This document shows positions 1 to 63,707 of a stretch of 64,000 bases of DNA, in pieces (position 1 is the stretch's first letter; each line of letters starts with the position of its first letter). The stretch covers positions 62,001 to 126,000 of the forward strand of contig CANPXF010000001.1 of the NCBI GenBank assembly GCA_947585745.1, in the 5' to 3' direction. The stretch is from an uncultured Clostridia bacterium. GTDB lineage: Bacteria > Bacillota > Clostridia > Oscillospirales > Acutalibacteraceae. Under the pieces are notes generated by a model. It was not told the DNA's origin. It was given only the letters and a program-made list of their open reading frames with translations, and made no database searches. A program made the position numbers and the translations under genes.

Positions 1-1792
1 AAGTATAGGTGAGAATGCATTTTCTTATTGTGAAAGCCTTGAAAGTATAACAATCCCCGACAGCGTTACAAGTATAGGTGAAAGTGCATTTTACTTTTGC
101 ACAAGCCTTGAAAAAGTAATAATAGGTAACGGCGTTACAAATATAGGCGGGAGCGCATTTTATGAATGCACAAGCTTGAAAGATGTAACAATAGGCAACA
201 GTGTTACAAGTATAGGTGAGTATGCATTTTATGAATGCACAAGATTGATAGATGTAACAATCCCGGACAGTGTCACAAGTATAGGTGAAAATGCATTTTA
301 TGAATGCACAAGTCTTACAAGTTTAAAAATAGGCAACAGTGTTACAAGTATAGGTGATTATGCATTTTATTATTGCGAAAGCTTGAAAGATGTAACAATC
401 CCCGACAGTGTCACAAGTATAGGTGAAAATGCATTTTATGAATGCACAAGTCTTACAAGTATAAAAATAGGCAATAGTGTTACAAGTATAGGTGAAGAGG
501 CATTTTACGGATGCACAGGCTTGAAAGATGTAACAATCCCGGACAATGTCACAAGTATAGGCGATTATGTATTTGAAGAATGCACAAGCCTTGAAAGCGT
601 AATAATAGGAAACGGTGTTACAAGTATAGGTGAAGAGGCATTTTATGAATGCACAAGCTTGAAAGATGTAACAATAGGCAATAGTGTTACAAGTATAGGT
701 GATTATGCATTTTATTATTGCGAAAGCTTGAGAGATGTAACTATCCCCAATAGCGTTACAAGCATAGGAAAGAAAGCATTTAAATATTGCACACTTCTTA
801 CAAACGTAACAATCCCCAACAGCGTTACAGATATAGGTTGGGAAGCATTTTACGGTACTGCCTGGTACGATAATCAGCCCAACGGTGTAGTGTACGCAGG
901 AAAGGTTGCCTATAAATATAAAGGAAAATGCCCCGCCACAGTAAATATAAAAGCAGATACTGTAGGTATAGCGGAAGGCGCATTTTCTTATTGTCTAAAT
1001 CCTAAAAAGATAACAGTCCCCAACAGTGTTATAAGTATAGGCGAAAATGCGTTTAGATTTTGTGCAAATCTTCAAAGCATAACAATAGGTAATGGAGTTA
1101 CAAGCATAGGTTTTGGAGCCTTTTCAGATTGCGCAAGCCTAACCGGTATTACTATTCCAAGAAATGTTAAAAATATTGATTCCTATGCATTTGGATATTA
1201 TTATAACTACTATACTGATTATTATGAAAAAATAGATAATTTCATAGTTGCAGGCTACAGCGGTACAGGGGCGCAAAGATACGCGGACAATAACGATTTT
1301 AAATTCACCAACTTAAGTGACGCCCAACCTACAACGCCAGTTTCTAAAACCTCAATCTCCCTCAAAAAATCCTCGGGAAATGTCTATGTAAAGAAAACCC
1401 TGCAGATAAAAGCAACAGTTAAAAACAGCAAGGGCAAAACGACCTACACATCGAGCAACAAAAAGGTTGCAAAGGTCAACTCAAACGGAAAGATAACAGG
1501 CGTTAAAAAGGGTACGGCTACAATTACCGTTACCAACAACGGCGTATCAAAGAAATTTAAGGTAACCGTTAACAATCCTAAGCTGAACAAGAGCAAGCTG
1601 AATCTTAAAAAAGGAAAGACCTTTAAGCTGAAAATTACGGGCAAAGCAGGAACTCAAAAATACACTTCAAGCAAAAAGAGCGTTGCAACGGTAAGCAAAA
1701 AGGGTATAATCGCCGCTAAAAAGAAAGGTAACGCTACCATTACCGTAAAAACCAACGGCTTAAAGCTAAAGTGCAAGGTTAAGGTAAAATAA
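1..1792 (+). CDS. BspA-type leucine-rich-repeat surface protein with two Big_2-like C-terminal domains, 5' end outside window
   Basis: The reading frame is open from base 2, so the tracked TTG at 176 is only an internal codon and the gene begins left of the window. The N-terminal part is an array of 23-residue LRR_5 (BspA/TpLRR) repeats of the form SVTSIGxxAFYxCTSLxxVTIP, visible at DNA level as roughly 69-bp repeats to about base 1180. It is followed by a degenerate cap, then two Ig-like Big_2 modules (YTSSNKKVAKVNSNGKITGVKKG; YTSSKKSVATVSKKG) and a lysine-rich end KVKVK. BspA-like repeats typically serve adhesion or protein binding at the cell surface. No LPXTG or dockerin is visible. The lysine-rich Ig end recurs in other secreted proteins here. 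The family call is sure; the ligand is unknown. Confidence 0.9.
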   Translation, partial: SIGENAFSYCESLESITIPDSVTSIGESAFYFCTSLEKVIIGNGVTNIGGSAFYECTSLKDVTIGNSVTSIGEYAFYECTRLIDVTIPDSVTSIGENAFYECTSLTSLKIGNSVTSIGDYAFYYCESLKDVTIPDSVTSIGENAFYECTSLTSIKIGNSVTSIGEEAFYGCTGLKDVTIPDNVTSIGDYVFEECTSLESVIIGNGVTSIGEEAFYECTSLKDVTIGNSVTSIGDYAFYYCESLRDVTIPNSVTSIGKKAFKYCTLLTNVTIPNSVTDIGWEAFYGTAWYDNQPNGVVYAGKVAYKYKGKCPATVNIKADTVGIAEGAFSYCLNPKKITVPNSVISIGENAFRFCANLQSITIGNGVTSIGFGAFSDCASLTGITIPRNVKNIDSYAFGYYYNYYTDYYEKIDNFIVAGYSGTGAQRYADNNDFKFTNLSDAQPTTPVSKTSISLKKSSGNVYVKKTLQIKATVKNSKGKTTYTSSNKKVAKVNSNGKITGVKKGTATITVTNNGVSKKFKVTVNNPKLNKSKLNLKKGKTFKLKITGKAGTQKYTSSKKSVATVSKKGIIAAKKKGNATITVKTNGLKLKCKVKVK

Positions 1793-19943: not shown

Positions 19944-20489
19944 ATGGTAGCGAAAAAGGGGTGTGTAATTATTCTGAATAAAAAAACATTAATTATTTCA
20001 TGGGTAATTTTGATAGCAATGTTAAGTCTATTTGTTGGTTGTAATTCTTTAAAAGATAATGTAAAAGAAATAACGGCAAGTTCAGGGAATAAAACTATAC
20101 CTGTTTTCTCTAACGGAGAAGACTTTAAAACAATAATGAAATCTCTAAGCTTAGAAGAGTTGGTTTACATCAAAAATAAAGAACGAGTGTTGATTAAATT
20201 TAATGAAAAAAGCCCAAAAAACATACAATTAACTGAACACATTTTAAATAAAAACGGAACACCTAAGTTTGCCTCTGAAAAAACAGGAAAAATAATTAAA
20301 ACGAAATTGGATAAAAATAAAACTTCTTTTAAAGTCGAACCCAATTTAGCTGCGTCATTAAGCTCAAATGGCAATGATTTTAATCCCGGGGCAACGATAA
20401 AGGGATACCACCTTGTTTGTGATTGGGGTAACAATCAGTCAGACTATTATTTTGTTATAAGAGGTGACGCGGCTGTTTCAAACAAATAG
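19944..20489 (+). CDS. Putative lipoprotein of unknown function
   Basis: The protein carries a lipobox-type signal (ISWVILIAMLSLFVGC) followed by about 150 residues rich in Lys, Asn and Ser without a domain I recognise. The start is unclear: the tracked TTG at 19932 and the ATG at 19944 lack a good ribosome site, while AAAAGGGG sits just before an ATT-ATT-CTG-AAT run that would give a normal signal peptide. A non-canonical start or an error is possible. Its AT-rich codon use differs from the NRPS locus, and a hairpin separates the two, so membership in that locus is doubtful. Confidence 0.6.
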   Translation: MVAKKGCVIILNKKTLIISWVILIAMLSLFVGCNSLKDNVKEITASSGNKTIPVFSNGEDFKTIMKSLSLEELVYIKNKERVLIKFNEKSPKNIQLTEHILNKNGTPKFASEKTGKIIKTKLDKNKTSFKVEPNLAASLSSNGNDFNPGATIKGYHLVCDWGNNQSDYYFVIRGDAAVSNK

Positions 20490-20792
20490 CCGGAAAATCT
20501 TTTCAAATTGTATTGTTATAAAAATTTAATATTATGTAAAAATAATTCTTATAACATAATTAGTGAAAAACACCGGGTTAATTATAAACTTGTGTTTTTT
20601 CATTTTTTAAATTCTCCGTGTACCCTGATAACGCGTTTTTACTTTTTTATTCGTAAAATTGACAATACTCAAATAAGGTTGTCAAATTGTTAATATAATT
20701 GATATTAAATAATATAATTAATAATAAAAATTAACGCCTGCCTTTTCGGCAGGCTTTATATGCGTTTTAATAAATATTCGGAGGAAATACGA
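20490..20792. other. Intergenic stretch with one hairpin
   Basis: AT-rich and without a convincing gene. The tracked 61-aa ORF at 20508 has no ribosome site or recognisable features. A strong stem GCCTGCC/GGCAGGC at 20736-20754 with a short T run (TTTAT) lies 38 bases before the MATE start. It may end the lipoprotein transcript, although its position next to the ribosome site would also allow attenuation. Confidence 0.5.
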
Positions 20793-28052: not shown

Positions 28053-28874
28053 TTAAAAAATCTTTCTTGCCTTGATAACAAATGCTGTTGGGAGCATAAG
28101 CGCTTTTTTGCTGAAATCCGTATTTGCGATTTTGGCTTTCTCTCTGTCAGTTTCTTCAAATAGCCTCTCAATTACAAAGCCGTTATCAGCCAAAGCGTTA
28201 ATATATGTACTTAACATACGGTTTGAAAGCATAATTTCCTTATTGCTCATATCTGCAAGGTACCATTCTTCATCAAAGTAAGAATTGCTGAATATAAACT
28301 TATCGTTTTCAACAGACACGCATTTGTGTATTGGGTGCGACCAACCGAAAACAAATAAACCGCCCTTTTTAAGGTATGAATAAATGCGATTAAACGTTTT
28401 ATCTAAATCGGTTGTCCATCCAATGCCGTAAACCGAATATACCAAATCAAAATATTCTTTCGGCAAACCGCATTCGTCCTCCATTGGCGAACATACAAGA
28501 TTAGCGTTGACACCCGTTGACTTTAGATGTTCTTTTGTCCTTTTAATCTGATTAGGGGAAATATCAAGTCCCCACAAATCATTTGCTCCGCGCTTATTGA
28601 CATATTCCAACGAGCGTCCATTCCCGCAACCAATTTCAAGAACACTTTTATCACTTAAATCACCGAGCAGATTCAGCTTGTCCTCGGACGGCAAAAAACC
28701 TCCCCAAGAAGGCAGAGAGGTCGACCCTAAAAATTCACTGCCTATCGTATTCCAAAACTCTGTATTAGTTCTGTGCGCCTCATTCACGTTCATCTCTGTA
28801 TTAACCGCACGACTTAATACTCTGCCTGCAACAATATTGTTTTTTTGCGAGTCCGAACTTTTAACTTTTTTCAT
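28053..28874 (-). CDS. Class I SAM-dependent methyltransferase
   Basis: The 273-aa protein carries motif I VLEIGCGNGRSLEYV at about residue 80, an acidic motif II (LWGLDISPNQIKRT), and LVYSVYGIGWTTDL as the post-motif strand, which identify a Methyltransf_11/25 fold. The N-terminal 60 residues (NEAHRTNTEFWNTIGSEFLG) resemble small-molecule or quinone-type methyltransferases. It has an AGGAGGAAGAT ribosome site before the ATG and sits alone, separated from the acyltransferase genes by a terminator. The substrate is unknown. Confidence 0.88.
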   Translation of the reverse strand: MKKVKSSDSQKNNIVAGRVLSRAVNTEMNVNEAHRTNTEFWNTIGSEFLGSTSLPSWGGFLPSEDKLNLLGDLSDKSVLEIGCGNGRSLEYVNKRGANDLWGLDISPNQIKRTKEHLKSTGVNANLVCSPMEDECGLPKEYFDLVYSVYGIGWTTDLDKTFNRIYSYLKKGGLFVFGWSHPIHKCVSVENDKFIFSNSYFDEEWYLADMSNKEIMLSNRMLSTYINALADNGFVIERLFEETDREKAKIANTDFSKKALMLPTAFVIKARKIF

Positions 28875-29016: not shown

Positions 29017-29061
29017 CTTATTGTATTATTTTGTTGTAATATGTCAGCTTTAAATCGCATA

Positions 29062-29167
29062 TTATTTCAGACTGAATTTTACGCTTACGTCTGAACAGCC
29101 GACTGCTTTTTCAATGGCGGTCGGGGTCTCTATATACCCGAGCTTTGTGTAGCTGTAGGAGGTTTTA
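29062..29167 (-). pseudogene. 3' remnant of a paralogue of the secreted Ig protein at 32148-32810
   Basis: The minus strand encodes KTSYSYTKLGYIETPTAIEK...VSVKFSLK and a stop, matching the last 34 residues of the intact gene (KTSYSYTKLGYIENPSSLAK...VRVKFTLK). About 38 bases are identical in DNA at an offset of 3086 bp. Similarity stops exactly at the acyltransferase stop codon, so the rest of the paralogue was replaced or deleted. Confidence 0.85.
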
Positions 29168-30280
29168 TGCTTTGGCTTTCAGCCTTTTTTGGTTTATCTT
29201 TTTTACAGTCCAATTATATAACAGCACGAATATTACCGAAAAAATTATATCTGCTATAAATAGAATTACGCTATCAAAAACCATTTCTCTGTTGATAGCA
29301 GGAATAAACTCAAAAATTCTATGAATCTGTCTGGAAACAATAATTATGAGAGATATTATGATATCATGACATGCCATAAAAGCAAATGAATTTACACCGA
29401 AAAACTTTAAAAACTTTGACTTATTTATAAGCTGGGATATTAACAATACTGCTATCGTTCCTATAACTCCCGTTATGTATAACAAAATACCATTATTCAG
29501 TTTTCTGTCACCTATAGACACTATTCCGTTTCTAAAAGCAACAACCGAACAAACCACTGCCAAGATTATTACCGCAATCAGTATAATTATTGAATTAACC
29601 CGAATTTTTTTATCTTTCTTTTGTTCAAAAATAAATCTATTAAAATAAGGTTTTGCAAGGTTGCCTATAGCATAGAAACCTACTGAAAAAAAGGCAGAGC
29701 AAAGATTCCAAGGTAAAAAAGATGTATCTACAGGACAATAACTTGATTCAAGATACCAACCTAATATTCCTAAAACCGTTACAATAGCAATAATAAAAAA
29801 CTTGTTTTTTAATTTGGCAATAAAATAGTACATTATTTGAATTACCAGCAAACAAGTTATAAACCACAACGGACCATTTATTAACATAACATGTGCATAC
29901 TGAGCAATAAATATCTGAATGAAATTATTTATAATCGTTTGTATTGTATCAGTACCTATACCGGAATAAATATATCTAAGAACTATATACAAGAGAAATG
30001 AAAACAAACAGAAAACAAGATATGGACACACAATATGAATTAGCCTGGTCTTAATAAATGTCTTAAACGAGGTATATTTCTCCTGATTATAACAATAGCC
30101 CGAAATCAAAAAGAATAAAGGCATATGGAAAGAATAAATAATAACTTTTGCATTATAAAATTCACTCGCAAATGCAAAAACATGTCCCGCTATTACAAGT
30201 AATATTCCTATTCCCTTTGCTACATCAATCGCATCATTCCTTTTCCTTTTATTTGCCAATACTGCACTTGTCCCACTCAA
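29165..30280 (-). CDS. Membrane acyltransferase, family 3 (OafA / fucose 4-O-acetylase-like)
   Basis: About ten hydrophobic segments follow the family 3 start NDAIDVAKGIGILLVIAGHVF, in which the H is the conserved catalytic candidate; SFHMPLFFLISGYCY is the second hallmark. These integral membrane enzymes O-acylate cell-surface glycans or exopolysaccharides. The start codon is TTG, preceded by AGGGGTG. The gene is clearly AT-richer than its neighbours, suggesting transfer. Its 5' flank is a 90-bp copy of the 3' end of the XRE gene (30280-30369) and its 3' flank is the truncated Ig gene. Confidence 0.87.
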   Translation of the reverse strand: MSGTSAVLANKRKRNDAIDVAKGIGILLVIAGHVFAFASEFYNAKVIIYSFHMPLFFLISGYCYNQEKYTSFKTFIKTRLIHIVCPYLVFCLFSFLLYIVLRYIYSGIGTDTIQTIINNFIQIFIAQYAHVMLINGPLWFITCLLVIQIMYYFIAKLKNKFFIIAIVTVLGILGWYLESSYCPVDTSFLPWNLCSAFFSVGFYAIGNLAKPYFNRFIFEQKKDKKIRVNSIIILIAVIILAVVCSVVAFRNGIVSIGDRKLNNGILLYITGVIGTIAVLLISQLINKSKFLKFFGVNSFAFMACHDIIISLIIIVSRQIHRIFEFIPAINREMVFDSVILFIADIIFSVIFVLLYNWTVKKINQKRLKAKA

Positions 30281-30369
30281 AAAAACACCCCTATATTTTT
30301 TGATTTTTATTTAATTTTTCTTTCCAAATATTCAAAATTATAATTTATCATCATTTTTGTAAGGCTTTT
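30280..30369. repeat. 90-bp direct repeat, copy A
   Basis: Identical at 88 of 90 positions to 31580-31669, exactly 1300 bp away. In copy B it covers the last codons of the XRE gene and its 3' flank; here it is a detached fragment (KPYKNDDKL-like codons out of context) serving as leader of the acyltransferase. Confidence 0.92.
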
Positions 30370-30394
30370 TATTATACATTATTTATACATCAGT

Positions 30395-31501
30395 TTATAC
30401 AAAACTCAATATATTAATAATTTTGTGATATATCTTCCCCATAACACTAACTAAAAAATCGGCAAATTTATGTAATTTGATAAATGCGAAAATCTTTTTA
30501 AATATTAAACCAATAATCGTACAGGCAAAATAGATTACAAATGAATACAACAGTAAAACAGCAACTAACATAAGCGGGTTTGAATTTGCGTATTCTTTAA
30601 TCATATCTTTCTGAATATATGTAAAAACCAGATAATGAGTACTTATTATATAAACATAAAATGATACCGAGGAAACCTTTAAAATACCCTTTGCTTTTTT
30701 TATTTCTATCTTCGTAAAGAAACAGAACAGTAGTAAAGAGCCTATCACTAATAACGGCGAATTATAAATTAAAAATTTAAAACCTTTTACGCTCTCTATA
30801 CCACAGGATTTTACAATAAAATCAACAGAAATTACCCCAAAATAATTAAACAAATATGCTAAAAAAGATACTAATAATATTTTATATTTACCAAACTTTC
30901 CAATTCCATATAAACGTATGTATGCTCCGCACAGATACAAATACATAAGCCAAATCGGACTGTATCCCTCTGCAACCTTAAAGAAATCTCCTCCCATAAT
31001 GTTGCCTGCAAACGCAAAACCCGATAATAAAATAAAACCGATAAGTAATATTTTCAGCAAAGATTGTTTTCTAAGTTGTAAAACGGCTTTATTTAACAAC
31101 GGCATTGCTATAAATACACATATATAAGAACCAAAATACCAATACTCACCTGATAATACCGGAAAATACGGGAATATCATTTCCGCTTTTTTTAAATTAA
31201 ACTGAGAAAAAAGAATAAAAGCTGTAGTAATAATAAATGAATAAAAAATTACTTCTAACCATAGGTTGATTATCCTATTTAATCTGTTTTTTGAATATAA
31301 ACATACGTATCCGCTAATCAGCGCGTATATATTGACCGCGCCGAAGCAAAGGTTTTCTATGAAATAAGCCAAATAATAATTCACCGAGCCAAAATCGGTA
31401 TTGTTAAGGATTCCTCCCTTATTCAGACAATGTAGCATAACTATCATATACATAGACACTATTCGAGCTATCTCAATCCCATATATCCTTTTATTTTGCA
31501 T
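30395..31501 (-). CDS. Membrane acyltransferase, family 3, second copy
   Basis: The 368-aa protein starts KRIYGIEIARIVSMYMIVMLHC, with the conserved H in the first membrane helix, and contains SGEYWYFGSYICVFIAMPLLNK, typical of the EPS-type acyltransferase 3 branch. It has AAAGGGAG before the ATG. It is only distantly related to the other copy at 29165-30280. It lies entirely between two 90-bp direct repeats, so recombination between them would delete it and place the other acyltransferase directly behind the XRE gene. AT-rich base use supports acquisition from elsewhere. Confidence 0.87.
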   Translation of the reverse strand: MQNKRIYGIEIARIVSMYMIVMLHCLNKGGILNNTDFGSVNYYLAYFIENLCFGAVNIYALISGYVCLYSKNRLNRIINLWLEVIFYSFIITTAFILFSQFNLKKAEMIFPYFPVLSGEYWYFGSYICVFIAMPLLNKAVLQLRKQSLLKILLIGFILLSGFAFAGNIMGGDFFKVAEGYSPIWLMYLYLCGAYIRLYGIGKFGKYKILLVSFLAYLFNYFGVISVDFIVKSCGIESVKGFKFLIYNSPLLVIGSLLLFCFFTKIEIKKAKGILKVSSVSFYVYIISTHYLVFTYIQKDMIKEYANSNPLMLVAVLLLYSFVIYFACTIIGLIFKKIFAFIKLHKFADFLVSVMGKIYHKIINILSFV

Positions 31502-31579
31502 AAAAACTCCCTTTTAATGTTATACAGATATATAAAAAACAAATTGATTTACGCCGATTATTTCTATATGTTTTCGGCT

Positions 31580-31669
31580 AAAAAACACCCCTATATTTTT
31601 TGATTTTTATTTAATTTTTCTTTCCAAATATTCAAGATTATAATTTATCATCATTTTTGTAGGGCTTTT
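31580..31669. repeat. 90-bp direct repeat, copy B (overlaps 3' end of XRE gene)
   Basis: Partner of 30280-30369. This is probably the original copy since it contains the intact C-terminal codons and stop of the XRE regulator. Confidence 0.92.
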
Positions 31670-31874
31670 CAACAGACGTTCTCCCCAGTATATAATCGGT
31701 GCTCGTATTATAAAAATCTGCAATAGCAATGAGAACTTCCGTGGGAATGTCGCGCATACCAAGCTCATAACGTGAATATGCAACCTGACTGCAGTTAAGA
31801 TATTCTGCCAGTTGACGCTGCAACAAATCATTGTCTTCTCTCAGCTCTCTTATCCTTTTATACATAGTCACCAT
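31638..31874 (-). CDS. XRE-family helix-turn-helix regulator
   Basis: This 78-aa protein is a Cro/C1-type HTH: RIRELREDNDLLQRQLAEYLNCSQVAYSRYELGMRDIPTEVLIAIADFYNTSTDYILGR, covering all five helices, with a short tail. Nothing but the DNA-binding domain is present. It is upstream of the acyltransferase genes on the same strand and may control them. Its 3' end is duplicated 1300 bp away. The second overlapping minus ORF (31607-31831) is a shadow. Confidence 0.9.
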   Translation of the reverse strand: MVTMYKRIRELREDNDLLQRQLAEYLNCSQVAYSRYELGMRDIPTEVLIAIADFYNTSTDYILGRTSVEKPYKNDDKL

Positions 31875-32051
31875 TTCTCCGAAATTTTTTATTATTATAA
31901 AATATACTGAATTGGCATTTGGATATATAAACCAAAACGGTTTATGATTTTGTCATAATTTGTCATAAAATACTATCTGAAATAAATTATTGGATATTCA
32001 TTAACAAAAGACTGTGTTACTAATACAAAAATGTATTTTGAAATAACTTTA

Positions 32052-32090
32052 AAAAAATGGCCTTGGAACTTGTGTTCCAAAGCCATTTTG
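32052..32090 (-). terminator. Terminator of the secreted Ig-protein gene
   Basis: AAAATGGC-c-TTGGAAC pairs with GTTCCAA-a-GCCATTTT around a 4-nt loop and is followed on the minus strand by TTTAAAGTTATTT. Confidence 0.85.
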
Positions 32091-32147
32091 CTTTAAAGTT
32101 TTAAAAAATTTTCACTCAAATAAATGCCCTTATTTTTAAGGCGTATG

Positions 32148-32810
32148 TTATTTTAAGGTGAATTTTACTCTCACTTTTGAATTTCCTACTGTTTTCGCGA
32201 GAGATGACGGGTTTTCTATATACCCGAGCTTTGTGTAGCTGTAGGAGGTTTTAAAGGTTTTATAGAAAAGCACGAGGCAATCGTCACCGTAGAGCATAAT
32301 ATCTCCGCACTTGATTTTTGAAACCGCCTTTTCATTTGCGGGAAGGGATTTGTCAAAATAATAATACTTTTCGTTGCCGTTAAGCTCGCTCATATTCAAG
32401 GTCATCGGCAAAAGCTTTTTCAATTTCTTCGCTGAGTTGTTATTGTAAAGGCGCGCGGTAAATTTCTTTCCCTTAACTGTGACGTACATTTTAGAGAGGC
32501 CTTTGCTCTTTACCGTAACTCTGCATTTATATTTTTTGCCGTTTTTTGCCTTGACGGTAATTACCGCTTTGCCTGCTTTTCTGCCCTTTACTATGCCCTT
32601 TGAGCTTACCGTAGCGACCGATTTTTTAGAAGATTTAAAGGATTTCGCCTTACCGCCGTTAAGCTTAAGGGTGAAGCTTTTTCCCGTGTAAATAGTTTTT
32701 GATTTATGATTAAGCCTTGCCTTTGCCGACGCGGAAAAGTCACACGAAACTATCAGCAGAGCTGTCAGAAAACACAAAACAACGCTTTTAAATTTAACGG
32801 AATTTTTCAT
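32148..32810 (-). CDS. Secreted protein with Big_2-like Ig module
   Basis: The 220-aa protein has a signal peptide (VVLCFLTALLIVSCDFSASAKA) and a Big_2-like module (FKSSKKSVATVSSKGIVKGRKAGKAVITVKAKNGKKYKCRVTVK). Its C-terminal domain of about 110 residues ends SYSYTKLGYIENP...VRVKFTLK. The same C-terminal sequence survives as a remnant at 29062-29167, so the gene was once duplicated. The GNAT gene lies one base upstream of its start on the same strand (32812 stop), suggesting one transcript. Surface location likely; ligand unknown. Confidence 0.75.
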   Translation of the reverse strand: MKNSVKFKSVVLCFLTALLIVSCDFSASAKARLNHKSKTIYTGKSFTLKLNGGKAKSFKSSKKSVATVSSKGIVKGRKAGKAVITVKAKNGKKYKCRVTVKSKGLSKMYVTVKGKKFTARLYNNNSAKKLKKLLPMTLNMSELNGNEKYYYFDKSLPANEKAVSKIKCGDIMLYGDDCLVLFYKTFKTSYSYTKLGYIENPSSLAKTVGNSKVRVKFTLK

Positions 32811-37740: not shown

Positions 37741-37800
37741 GCATCCCCAAACGTATCTGCACTATCCAAAACAAGACAGAGGCAGAAACGTTTGGGGAAA
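37741..37800. repeat. Intergenic repeat, single truncated copy, forming a hairpin
   Basis: Contains the family core in reverse orientation (CTATCCAAAACAAGACAGAG) flanked by TCCCCAAACG and CGTTTGGGGA, which pair into a strong stem. Placed between convergent genes, it may also terminate transcription. It is followed by TTAATTC-type heptamers. Confidence 0.75.
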
Positions 37801-37829
37801 TTTAATTCTTAATTTTTAATTTTTAATTC

Positions 37830-39347
37830 CTAATTCTCTTCGGGCAGTTCAAACCAGAAGGTCGAGCCGAAACCGACCTTGCTGTTAACTCCGTAGCGGG
37901 CGCCGTGCAAATCAAGAATATTTTTTACAATTGAAAGCCCCAGTCCAGTACCGATAACTCCCCGCTTATGCTCCTTGTCAACCTTATAATATCTGTCCCA
38001 AATATATTCGAGCTTATCGGAGGGGATACCGTTTCCGTGGTCGGTTACTTCAATCCTCACGCGCTTGTTGCCGACCTTTTGGGTTACAATTACAACCTTG
38101 TCGTCACCGCAGTGATTAATCGCGTTGTTGATAAAGTTATATATAACCTGCCCTAATTTCACCTTGTCGGCATATACATATGCGTTTTTGTCATACTTAA
38201 AGCTTATGTTATAGCCCTCTTGCTCTCTGAGCTTTGTGTAGCGTTTGAAAATTTCGTTAATCTCGTCAGTAAGGCTAAACTGCTCCCTGTCAATTTCAAT
38301 AGCTCCCGACTGGAGCTTTGAGAGGTCGAGCATATCGTTTACAAGCGACGAGAGCCTGTTCGCCTCGTCTATAATCACCTGAACATTTTCGGGCGTGTTC
38401 TCTCCGGGCAAATCACGCATAACCTCGCCGTAGCCCGTAATCATTGTGAGCGGAGTGCGCAGGTCGTGGGAAATATTCGCAATAAGCTCCTGCCTTAGAT
38501 TGTCCGTTTTCTGAAGCTCTTTTCGGGTTATGTTAAGCGTGTCGCTAAGCTCGTTTACTTCGAGATAACCCGTGCTGTCAAACTCAACGCCGTAGTTTCC
38601 GCGCGCAAGCTTTTTGATTGTTGTATTAATTTCAACAAGCGGACGCGATAGCCTTTTTGATACTATAAATGCGAGTATAATCGCAAAGACTATAAAAACT
38701 ATACTCACGACAGTAAGCTGTATTCTGATTGTATTTACAACCGAATCGACGGGAGTAATCATCGCCGTAATAAGCACAAAACATTCTTCTGTTCCGCCAA
38801 GCTTTAAAATTTGGGCGTATACAAGATTTTCAACAAGGCTTCCGCCTCGTCCCCTGATTCTCCAACCCGATATTCCCGCAAATTCATCAGCGGACGCCTC
38901 TGCGCCTTCAAACGAAAAGCTTACTCCGTTTTCTTCAGCGGACGAGGTGGAAATATATTTCCCCCCCGCCTCGCGCGCAAGCCTATAGTACGAATACACA
39001 ACGTGCATATTTATATCGCGAAGTCCCGAAGGGTTGTTGTATTCGCTGTCATATTCCTTTGTCATTATCGCGTCCGTGGAGTTATAAACATAAACGCTCA
39101 TTTCGTTCTCGCGGGATATGTTAAAAATCTTTGTCGCCGTGTCATCCCCGCTTTCTATACTTCTTGTAATCTCTGAGGCATATCCTTTCACCTGCGACTG
39201 GCGGATAAGCTTGTAGCAGGTTTCGAGAAAGGCAATCTGAAAAATCCATAAAAACACGAGCATAGCGACCGAAAAAGCTATAAAATAGATACTAAGCTTG
39301 TACCTTAACGGAAGGCTTTTCCAACGCGAAATTTTAGTTTGTTTCAA
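37830..39347 (-). CDS. Membrane sensor histidine kinase
   Basis: The 505-aa kinase has two membrane helices (about 17-36 and 210-232) flanking a 170-residue extracellular sensor domain, a HAMP segment (KRLSRPLVEINTTIKKLARGNYG), the H box NISHDLRTPLTMITGYGE, N box NFINNAINHC and G boxes ITDHGNGIP-like and GTGLGLSIVKNILDLHG. It overlaps the response regulator gene by 14 bases, a standard two-component pair. Family resemblance is to PhoR/WalK-like kinases. The signal is unknown, and no dedicated target gene is adjacent. Confidence 0.93.
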   Translation of the reverse strand: MKQTKISRWKSLPLRYKLSIYFIAFSVAMLVFLWIFQIAFLETCYKLIRQSQVKGYASEITRSIESGDDTATKIFNISRENEMSVYVYNSTDAIMTKEYDSEYNNPSGLRDINMHVVYSYYRLAREAGGKYISTSSAEENGVSFSFEGAEASADEFAGISGWRIRGRGGSLVENLVYAQILKLGGTEECFVLITAMITPVDSVVNTIRIQLTVVSIVFIVFAIILAFIVSKRLSRPLVEINTTIKKLARGNYGVEFDSTGYLEVNELSDTLNITRKELQKTDNLRQELIANISHDLRTPLTMITGYGEVMRDLPGENTPENVQVIIDEANRLSSLVNDMLDLSKLQSGAIEIDREQFSLTDEINEIFKRYTKLREQEGYNISFKYDKNAYVYADKVKLGQVIYNFINNAINHCGDDKVVIVTQKVGNKRVRIEVTDHGNGIPSDKLEYIWDRYYKVDKEHKRGVIGTGLGLSIVKNILDLHGARYGVNSKVGFGSTFWFELPEEN

Positions 39348-41098: not shown

Positions 41099-41647
41099 AT
41101 GAAAAGAATTACACTTCCGCTGACAGACGAACAGATAAGCACGCTCAAGGCAGGCGACAGCGTTTTGCTTTCGGGTACAATGATAACAGGCAGAGACGCC
41201 GCCCACAAAAGACTTTTTGAGTTAATACAAAACGGAGAAAAGCTCCCCGTTGATATAAAAGACGAAACGATTTACTATGTAGGCCCCGCCCCCGCAAAGC
41301 CGGGTTACGCGGTAGGTCCCGCAGGTCCGACATCAAGCTACAGAATGGATAAATATGCTCCCGCCCTGCTTGATATGGGTTTAAAGGGTATGGTCGGAAA
41401 AGGCAGGCGAAGTGATGAGGTTATTGACGCGATTGTCCGCAATCACGCGGTCTACTTTTGCGCGATAGGCGGAGCCGCCGCGCTTATAGCAAAGAGCATT
41501 AAAAAAACCGAACCCATTTGCTACGAGGATTTGGGTACGGAATCTGTAAGAAGATATTATGTCGAGGATTTTCCCTGCATAGTCGCGATAGACTGCGAGG
41601 GCAATAATATTTATATGTCCGCGTCAGACATTTCAGCTCCTATTTGA
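41099..41647 (+). CDS. fumB: Fumarate hydratase class I, beta subunit
   Basis: The 182-aa protein is the C-terminal half of class I fumarase. It shows SGTMITGRDAAHKRLFELI, YYVGPAPAKPGYAVGPAGPTSSYRMDKYAP and GGAAALIAKSIK, the family's substrate-binding segments. It forms the active enzyme with the alpha subunit just upstream. No gene follows for 500 bases; that gap is filled with the intergenic repeat family. Confidence 0.92.
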   Translation: MKRITLPLTDEQISTLKAGDSVLLSGTMITGRDAAHKRLFELIQNGEKLPVDIKDETIYYVGPAPAKPGYAVGPAGPTSSYRMDKYAPALLDMGLKGMVGKGRRSDEVIDAIVRNHAVYFCAIGGAAALIAKSIKKTEPICYEDLGTESVRRYYVEDFPCIVAIDCEGNNIYMSASDISAPI

Positions 41648-42150
41648 AATTCATATCCCCCAGACGTTTCTTCCTCTATCTCACTTTGGATATAGAGGAC
41701 AGGTTCTTTTTAGATTTTCCACATCATACATTTCAGTCCCTTTTTTTATATCTCTACGTCAAACATTGCAGTCCCTCTCTAAAAAGCATATCCTCCAAAC
41801 GTTTAAGCCTCTGTTTTGTTTTGGATACGGAGGATATGTTCTGCGGAAAATCTCTATCAAACATTTCCTCTAAATATAATTTGAATAGGAATAAAAAGTT
41901 TACCTTTAAATCCAATTCTTAATTCTTAACTCTTAATTCTTAATTTTTTATATCCCCACGTCATACATTGCAGTCCCTCTCGGAAAATTCATATCCCCCA
42001 AACCTTTCTGCCCCTGTCTTGTTTTGGATAGAAAGGACAGGTTCTGCGGTAAACTTTTTAAAAACTTTTCCTTTCTATATGTTTTGAAAAGGAAATAAAA
42101 GTTTACCTTTAAATCTAATTCTTAATTCTTAACTCTTAATTCTTAATTCA
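41648..42150 (+). repeat. Cluster of three intergenic repeat units with heptamer runs
   Basis: Three same-direction units at about 41648-41712, 41750-41846 and 41950-42049, each with the box CATATCCCCCA (or CCTCCA), the core TTTGGATA and an end like GGTTCTGCGG. Two are followed by a spacer ending AAAAGTTTACCTTTAAATC and runs of TTAATTC-type heptamers. No gene is supported here; the tracked 92-aa ORF at 41644 lies in the repeats. Confidence 0.85.
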
Positions 42151-46244: not shown

Positions 46245-46629
46245 TATAAAAGCGTTCACAGTATTTTTAACCTCGTTTCTTTTCTGATAAAGGTAAATTT
46301 GTTCATAAATTCACCCCTCTTAAATGGAAAATATTATAATTTTTTTTGACATTAATATTATTGACACAGATATGTCTTTAAGATATAATTAATTCTATCA
46401 GGGATAAAAGGAGGGTACTAAAACAAAAATTCACTTATTATATAAAGTAACGGAGGGTATAGTAAAAAATATTTAATAAAATGACCTTTAAAATCAGCAG
46501 AAATCCGATGTCCGACAAATCATCAGTATAAATTTCCTTTAAAGTCTTTTGATGTCGGAAAATAAATTTGCAATAAAACAGCAATAAAATTATAAAACAT
46601 ATATTAAATAAGTCAGAAAGGAAAAACCA
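46245..46629 (+). other. Long leader region of the DUF3298-type gene
   Basis: No gene of convincing size. After the promoter at 46361-46389 there is an untranslated leader of about 230 bases. It holds two similar Shine-Dalgarno-like strings (AGGAGGGTACTAAAA, GGAGGGTATAGTAAAA) without a following ATG. It also has an inverted pair (CCGACA...TGTCGG) and a possible 16-codon ORF (46478 region, MTFKISRNPMSDKSSV). Confidence 0.5.
46361..46389 (+). promoter_or_regulatory. Consensus sigmaA promoter with long leader
   Basis: Perfect TTGACA and TATAAT with a 17-bp spacer. The start codon is 240 bases downstream. Confidence 0.88.
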
Positions 46630-47340
46630 ATGAAAAAAATATTATCAATAATTTTATCCATTTCAATACTTTTCAGCGTAACTGCGATTTTATCTGTTCC
46701 CGCTACAGCGAGCGCCGCCTCCAAAACGGGCAAAAAATATGTTACATATAAAACCATTAACAAGAATATTAAGAAAAACGGAACATTGATTTTGAAGGTA
46801 AAAGCAAAATATCCTCACTTGAAGTCAAAGTCAAAAGCGGCTAAAAAGGTTAATAAATTCTTTGCAAATCAAATCAAAAAGGATATCAAAGAAATTAAAA
46901 AATTAGCTGAAAAAGATTATTCAAATATTAACAAAAATTCAAGTGATTATTATAAATATAATGAAAATATTAAGTTGACATATAACAAAAAAAATAAATA
47001 CTCTTTTAAAAGTAATTGTTCCGGATATACCGGTGGCGTTCACGGCTACAGTTCTGTCACAGGATATAATTTCAGCAAACAAACAGGTAAAAAAATACCA
47101 AATTCCAAACTGACAAAATACAGCGATAAAGCGTTAAAAAAGAAAATTGTAAATAAGGTTAAGGCGAAAATCAATAAGAATCCAAAAAATTATTTTGACA
47201 ACGCTTTGCAGACCGTCAAAAATTGCAAGATAAATAAATTCAATGTTTGGTTAGATGCAAAATACCTTTATGTGTATTTTAATGAATACGAGTTGTCGAG
47301 TTATGCAAACGGACCTACTCAGATAAAAATTAAACTCTGA
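46630..47340 (+). CDS. Secreted lysine-rich DUF3298-type protein
   Basis: The 236-aa protein has a signal peptide (ILSISILFSVTAILSVPATASAA). A domain of about 190 residues contains YTGGVHGYSSVTGYNFSKQTGKKI and DAKYLYVYFNEYELSSYANGPTQIKI, the marks of DUF3298/DUF4163 as seen in RsiV and PdaC-like proteins. RsiV binds lysozyme, so a muramidase- or glycan-binding role is possible, but no catalytic domain is attached. It is AT-rich and very lysine-rich. It has an AGAAAGGAAAA ribosome site and its own promoter. Confidence 0.78.
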   Translation: MKKILSIILSISILFSVTAILSVPATASAASKTGKKYVTYKTINKNIKKNGTLILKVKAKYPHLKSKSKAAKKVNKFFANQIKKDIKEIKKLAEKDYSNINKNSSDYYKYNENIKLTYNKKNKYSFKSNCSGYTGGVHGYSSVTGYNFSKQTGKKIPNSKLTKYSDKALKKKIVNKVKAKINKNPKNYFDNALQTVKNCKINKFNVWLDAKYLYVYFNEYELSSYANGPTQIKIKL

Positions 47341-47364
47341 ATTTAATATTATAAGATTCCAAAT

Positions 47365-54829: not shown

Positions 54830-55390
54830 AGAGTTAAGAATTAAAAATTAAGAATTTTTATATTTCTTCGCCAGACATTGCAGTCCCTCTCTAAAAAACA
54901 TCTCCCCCATACAACTGTGCCTCTGTCTTACTTTGGATAGAAAGGATAAAGTTCTGCGAAAAATCTTTATATATAAAAATTCTCCCTATCTAACTTTAGA
55001 TAGGGAGATTAATTTTTCTGTTAATATAGGCTTTTTAAAAAGTCTACCGCAGAACCTGTCCTTACTATCCAAAACAAGATAATGGCACAACTGTTTGGGG
55101 GAGATGAATTGTCCGAGAGGGAATGCACGAGTAAAGAATTAAGAATTAAAAATTAATAATTAAGAATTAATAAGTTAAAGGTAAACTTTTTATTCCTTTT
55201 AAAATCGGATTTAGAGGAAAAGTTTCTAAAAAGTCTAAAAAGTCTACCGCAGAACCTGTCCTCCCTATCCAAAACAAGACAGAGGCAGAAAGGTTTGGGG
55301 GATATGAATTATCAGATAGGAGCTGAAATGTCTAACGAAGAGATATAAAAAAGGAATGCACGGACTGACGTGGAAAATATAAAAATTTTT
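54830..55390. repeat. Cluster of three intergenic repeat units, first one inverted relative to the others
   Basis: Units at about 54862-54958 (forward), 55047-55128 and 55247-55348 (reverse), plus a partial end near 55350. Between the forward and first reverse unit lies a 12-bp perfect stem (TCTCCCTATCTA / TAGATAGGGAGA) with a 4-nt loop. Heptamers of the TTAAGAA type fill the spacers. No gene is present. Confidence 0.85.
54981..55012 (+). terminator. Perfect hairpin inside the repeat cluster
   Basis: Twelve perfect pairs with loop ACTT, followed by TTAATTTTT. It is the first good terminator after the ABC operon. Confidence 0.7.
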
Positions 55391-62959: not shown

Positions 62960-63625
62960 AAAAAGTTACTTTTATATATCCACGTCAGACATTGCAGTCC
63001 CTATCTGACGGTTCATCTCCCCCAGATGTTTTTGCCCCTGTCTCGCTTTGGATAGTAAGGACAGGTTCTGCGGTATGCTTTTTAAATTTTTTAAAAACTT
63101 TTCCGCTCTATCTTTTTTGAATAGGAAATAAAAGTTAACCTCTAAATCTAATTCTTAATTTTTAATTTTTAATTCTTAATTTTTTACCCGTGCAGTCCCT
63201 CTCTGACGGTTCATCTCCCCCAGATGTTTTTGCCCCTGTCTTGTTTTGGATACAGAGGACAGGTTCTGCGGTATGCTTTTTAAAATTTTTAAAAACTTTT
63301 CCGCTCTATCTTTTTTGAATAGGAAATAAAAGTTAACCTCTAAATCTAATTCTTAATTTTTAATTTTTAATTCTTAATTTTTTACCCGTGCAGTCCCTCT
63401 CGGACAAATCATATCCCCCATACAATTGTACCTCTGTCTTGTTTTGGATAGAAAGGATAAAGTTGTGCGAAAAATCGTTATATATTAATATTGAAAATTT
63501 TACTTACATTTTTCTACCGCAGAACCTGCCCTCTCTATCCAAAGTAAGATAGAGGAAGAAAGGTTTGGGGGATATGCTTTTTAGAGAGGGACTGCAATGT
63601 CTGACGTGGAGATATAAAAATTCTT
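62960..63625. repeat. Cluster of four intergenic repeat units, including a 198-bp tandem duplication
   Basis: Forward units at about 62975-63073, 63190-63271 and 63388-63470, and a reverse unit at 63517-63617. The first two, with spacer and heptamers, form a nearly exact 198-bp tandem repeat. The last two face each other. The region between the sigma gene and the CAP gene holds no other feature except the CAP ribosome site. Confidence 0.88.
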
Positions 63626-63707
63626 AATTTTTAAATATTAAGCCATATATTACTTGTTGAATTTCTCATTTTATTATCATATAATTAAAGATAAAAGGAG
63701 AGATTTT

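Follow-up and report, generated by a model that had tools for sequence, protein, structure and literature searches.

Does an acyltransferase gene lying between two nearly identical direct repeats, both of which carry the end of a neighbouring regulator gene, mark a system for exchanging surface enzymes, or is it what remains of a gene's arrival? The locus in question lies in a stretch of 64,000 nucleotides of an uncultured Clostridia bacterium with a gut-type genome (hereafter the window), and an earlier note on this DNA had proposed that it resembles a swap cassette for glycan decoration. Our best reading is that the repeats are the scar of a recent single-gene insertion and not a switch. We think it probable that acyltransferase 2, as we call the framed gene, is an acquired single gene inserted between an XRE-type regulator gene and acyltransferase 1 with duplication of about 90 bp of target, and that the site is a hotspot for such events. 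Read along the minus strand, the locus comprises, in order, secreted protein, XRE, repeat copy B, acyltransferase 2, repeat copy A, acyltransferase 1, a diverged fragment of the secreted-protein gene, and methyltransferase, with the following coordinates in the window:

28053-28874, minus strand: methyltransferase gene
29025..32133, no strand assigned: segment in place of which the sister species G183 has 3074 bp of different genes
29026..29167, minus strand: diverged copy of the 3' end of the gene at 32148-32810, fused to the acyltransferase 1 stop codon
29165..30280, minus strand: acyltransferase 1, 371 aa, Acyl_transf_3 (PF01757), downstream neighbour
30280..30369, minus strand: repeat copy A, putative duplicated target, between the two acyltransferase genes
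30395..31501, minus strand: acyltransferase 2, 368 aa, Acyl_transf_3 (PF01757), putative inserted gene, with its own upstream AAAGGGAG
31580..31669, minus strand: repeat copy B, the last 9 codons of XRE, its stop codon and 58 bp downstream
31638..31874, minus strand: XRE-type HTH regulator, 78 aa, upstream neighbour, 3' end duplicated
32148..32810, minus strand: secreted Big_2/cyclophilin-like protein gene, bordering the variable region

Self-comparison of the window bears out the repeats reported in the earlier note, which are 90 bp long (30280-30369 and 31580-31669), identical at 88/90 positions (97.8%, two mismatches) and spaced 1300 bp apart, and it likewise confirms the extent of the duplication of the XRE 3' end and flank across the acyltransferase gene. 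The alignment of A with B scores 170, as against at most 33 with shuffled flanks. A whole-genome search gave no third copy, the next matches being short and due to chance, and the repeat was not found in viral contigs. The first bases of copy A, AAAAGCC, lie within former XRE coding sequence, and at its other end stands AGGGGTGTTTTTT, probably the region where ribosomes bind for acyltransferase 1. Following AGGGGTGTTTTTT, copy A passes into a TTG, presumably the start codon of acyltransferase 1, and copy B passes into the leader of acyltransferase 2. The repeated stretch is the entire junction between XRE and acyltransferase 1, so that both genes keep their ends and stay intact. Because the CCC codon of copy B is the codon present in a 90%-identical XRE homologue of genome G022, copy B is probably the original and copy A the duplicate.

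The unit between A and B holds a single open reading frame, that of the Acyl_transf_3 protein, and, in agreement with the earlier note, no transposase or integrase is seen among the scanned neighbouring genes. Judging solely by their Pfam family, both enzymes may acylate a cell-surface glycan. They give no BLASTP alignment with one another (E 0.66) and their nearest relatives differ. No relative of acyltransferase 2 above 40% identity appeared in the searches made: genomes and viral contigs contained no close relatives, an order-wide search at a cut-off of 1e-60 returned only the query itself, phage records had no match to the region, and plasmid records yielded distant acyltransferases only (26-45% identity). 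A PDB search with the acyltransferase profile returned only one marginal and uninformative match. The possibility that XRE is an acyltransferase-specific regulator was considered and rejected, as its homologues lie in unrelated surroundings, one of them before a purL-like gene, and none of 19 other loci with XRE homologues has an acyltransferase within about 1.5 kb.

On either side of the site, the flanks of the sister species G183 are about 92-96% identical to the window. Similarity ends at window position 32134, 14 bp past the stop codon of the secreted-protein gene, and resumes at 29024, before the methyltransferase gene; the 3074 bp segment between these points encodes an XRE protein and two membrane proteins, followed by a second XRE gene together with a YpsA/SLOG gene. 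Gene content at the site is thus variable, as the earlier note had expected. There is no DNA-level match to the window's XRE, acyltransferase 1 or acyltransferase 2 anywhere in G183, the A/B repeat is absent from this site in that species, and the genes of the G183 segment have no match in the window's genome. The XRE and YpsA/SLOG pair of G183 is itself framed by 128 bp direct repeats (94%), which start within the final codons of the preceding gene and pass through a terminator-like hairpin. As repeat-framed genes are present in both species, one site has taken insertions framed by duplicated junctions in both, and the comparison shows what appears to be a gene-insertion hotspot. The exact empty site, consisting of XRE, a single repeat copy and acyltransferase 1, was not found because the sole close relative, G183, lacks all three genes.

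All four repeat copies, namely A, B and the two at the G183 hotspot (L114 6572-6702 and 7651-7781), begin with AAAAGCC, which in these copies sits within or close to the final codons of a gene. This is possibly a microhomology used in joining, or chance; as a recombination signal it was rejected, since it is missing in two further framed loci, L156 and L193, described below. The two species differ elsewhere as well. A small lipoprotein-like gene is 98.9% identical between them and occupies different positions (window 19955-20612, L114 8710-9367), lying 8 kb from the methyltransferase gene in the window and adjoining it in G183. This gene is single-copy in both species, has only short matches in 161 other members of the genus, and shows no visible target duplication. 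At window 46251-47362 (about 1.1 kb), G183 holds approximately 10 kb instead (C21 1380-11688).

The A/B pair is enclosed by an outer direct repeat. Over 119 bp, the fragment at 29049-29167 shares 77% identity with the 3' end of the window's own secreted-protein gene, and the outer fragment is 80% identical over 143 bp to the sister copy of that end. The two species differ by about 4-6% at the same place, far less than the members of the outer repeat differ. The outer repeat looks older than the A/B pair, and the outer fragment may be a target duplication of earlier date or may equally be DNA that was imported.

Framed acyltransferase genes were also sought among 80 distant homologues of acyltransferase 2 obtained by profile search, with their flanks (627 kb). 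Only two direct-repeat pairs of at least 35 bp with a spacing of 0.7-3.5 kb occur in these loci, and both frame the acyltransferase (2/80, in other Clostridia): the repeats come from the 5' end of spoVT in L156 (104 bp, 96%) and from the 5' end of a ygjP-like gene in L193 (38 bp, 97%). In L157, a relative collinear at 77%, the upstream copy of spoVT is missing. In L202 (3700-5300), an acyltransferase 94% identical to the L156 gene lies in unrelated surroundings beside degenerate spoVT/AbrB-like 5' ends, the upstream remnant being judged by eye. At a score of at least 60, three of 86 acyltransferases are framed (index case included) as against one of 305 neighbouring control genes, the single control in question being a dispersed repeat; Fisher p values are 0.07 at score 50 and 0.02 at score 40. 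Framed acyltransferase genes may therefore be modestly enriched over controls, which is suggestive only.

A plausible sequence of events is that a horizontally acquired acyltransferase 2 entered between XRE and acyltransferase 1, and that the insertion copied about 90 bp of target, by which the ends of both neighbours would have been preserved; the same mode of insertion may have brought other genes to this site in the sister species. We infer that the gene was inserted rather than its flanks copied, and that the earlier order was XRE followed by acyltransferase 1. RecA-dependent deletion between such direct repeats is expected at some low rate, and could later remove acyltransferase 2; excision is possible, with no sign that it is used or regulated. 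The likeliest route would be one in which homology or a few shared bases anchor one end and end-joining completes the other, with homology-assisted illegitimate recombination (PMC2884548) or integration of a small circle as the main candidates. Several features that this account leads one to look for are found: the gene lies between direct repeats of roughly 100 bp (90 bp here), the repeat is the end of a neighbouring host gene and both neighbours are whole, and the inserted unit carries neither transposase nor integrase. The uniqueness of the repeat in the genome and the intact state of XRE and acyltransferase 1 argue for target duplication, as do the CCC codon kept by copy B, the different gene content of G183 with its insertion framed by 128 bp, the cases of L156 and L193, and the displaced L202 gene.

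An integrated small circle that already bore the 90 bp would look no different, and this counts against target duplication, as do the missing empty site and the modest size of the enrichment. The XRE 3' end would in that case have stood in front of acyltransferase 2 beforehand, and one copy would be donor DNA and not duplicated target, delivered either by one-crossover integration of a small circle or by homology-facilitated illegitimate recombination of donor DNA that bore this end. The two differing sites in 90 are what donor and recipient might show, the outer repeat (77-80%) has diverged much further than the two species have and fits imported DNA, and homology-assisted illegitimate recombination has been proposed for such dimorphic loci (PMC2884548). 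However, the searches made gave no donor in which an XRE end adjoins acyltransferase 2, and the same chance arrangement would be needed again for spoVT, for ygjP and for the insertion in G183, so that we regard a donor-borne repeat as somewhat unlikely.

The swap or switch cassette, in which the repeats would excise or exchange acyltransferases behind XRE and so vary surface decoration, draws on the facts that 90 bp direct repeats allow RecA deletion and that the locus differs between species. The earlier note's prediction that recombination would bring the remaining acyltransferase directly behind the regulator also holds, as the predicted deletion product is XRE, 57 nt and then acyltransferase 1, read from its own ribosome-binding site inside the repeat. 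Against this, no recombinase is seen nearby, the repeat exists in two copies only, and neither G183 nor the searched relatives yielded an alternative acyltransferase between these repeats, a comparison that the earlier note had suggested. The sister site moreover lacks any acyltransferase and any XRE of this kind, XRE homologues are unlinked to acyltransferases, and the two enzymes are unrelated by BLASTP; we consider a switch very unlikely, and the repeats fit an insertion by-product better than a recombination system. The gene order of XRE, repeat, acyltransferase, repeat, acyltransferase could also recall an XRE-acyltransferase unit that was duplicated in tandem and then lost its second XRE, but this is highly improbable and already contradicted: only the XRE 3' end is repeated, and the two acyltransferases neither align nor share nearest relatives. 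Nor are the repeats at all likely to be copies of an interspersed element or an integron-like recombination site. The genome does contain a dispersed intergenic repeat of about 100 bp, but A and B are two copies genome-wide and distinct from that family, they have no Rfam match, their folding is weak and non-significant, and no integrase is seen.

Insertion of a gene with long target duplication, the reading that we prefer, was reportedly described in Helicobacter pylori by Nobusato et al. 2000. Later papers (PMC3874152, PMC1643837, PMC3031569), two of which review it (PMC3874152, PMC1643837), connect it with restriction-modification genes and put the duplications "in the order of 100 bp"; such genes are given as its usual cargo (PMC1643837), an association outside the definition itself; the cargo at our locus is an acyltransferase and not a restriction-modification system. 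As the mode is described in these papers, our cases resemble it in having a transposase-less gene, direct target repeats of about 100 bp and intact neighbours, and in a repeat length that differs from case to case (38, 90, 104 and 128 bp here). They differ from the H. pylori cases, as described there, in that the cargo is an acyltransferase, or XRE with YpsA/SLOG, in Clostridia, and in that the precise empty site was not found. The mode of insertion is thus already known, and the cargo and lineage appear to be new. Homology-facilitated illegitimate recombination is similar in joining a foreign gene by homology at one end and non-homologously at the other, so that related genomes come to differ in the segment present at a site (PMC2884548), although a complete duplicated target of 90-128 bp is not specifically predicted by its described products. 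In integrons and cassette arrays, too, direct repeats of about 100 bp stand between single genes, but no integrase is seen here, and the repeats, as neighbour gene ends that vary case by case, look unlike a shared palindromic site.

To our knowledge, the entry of transposase-less single genes into bacterial chromosomes is largely unexplained. The recurring signature of a single gene with 40-130 bp copies of a neighbour's end on either side offers a simple test across gut Clostridia, and extends the restriction-modification pattern to surface-modifying enzymes and other cargo. One could go further and propose that Acyl_transf_3 genes of Clostridia spread as self-contained single-gene units with target duplications of 40-130 bp, by an unknown enzyme or pathway. 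We think this unlikely; if true, the spoVT-ended acyltransferase of L202 would be such a unit, carrying its own repeat ends.

The other repeats aligned from the 262-kb contig are either coding repeats or members of a dispersed intergenic family. The dispersed family, approximately 100-200 bp long and present in both orientations, is seen at window 37750-37840, 41600-42150, 54834-55385 and 62970-63640; it contains ACGTCAGACATTGCAGTCCCTCTCGG together with a CCCCTGTCTTGTTTTGGATA box and is present elsewhere on the contig too. Window 1-838 holds a 69 bp tandem repeat of about 12 copies within a coding region (ORF 176-1792), which probably encodes a repetitive surface protein.
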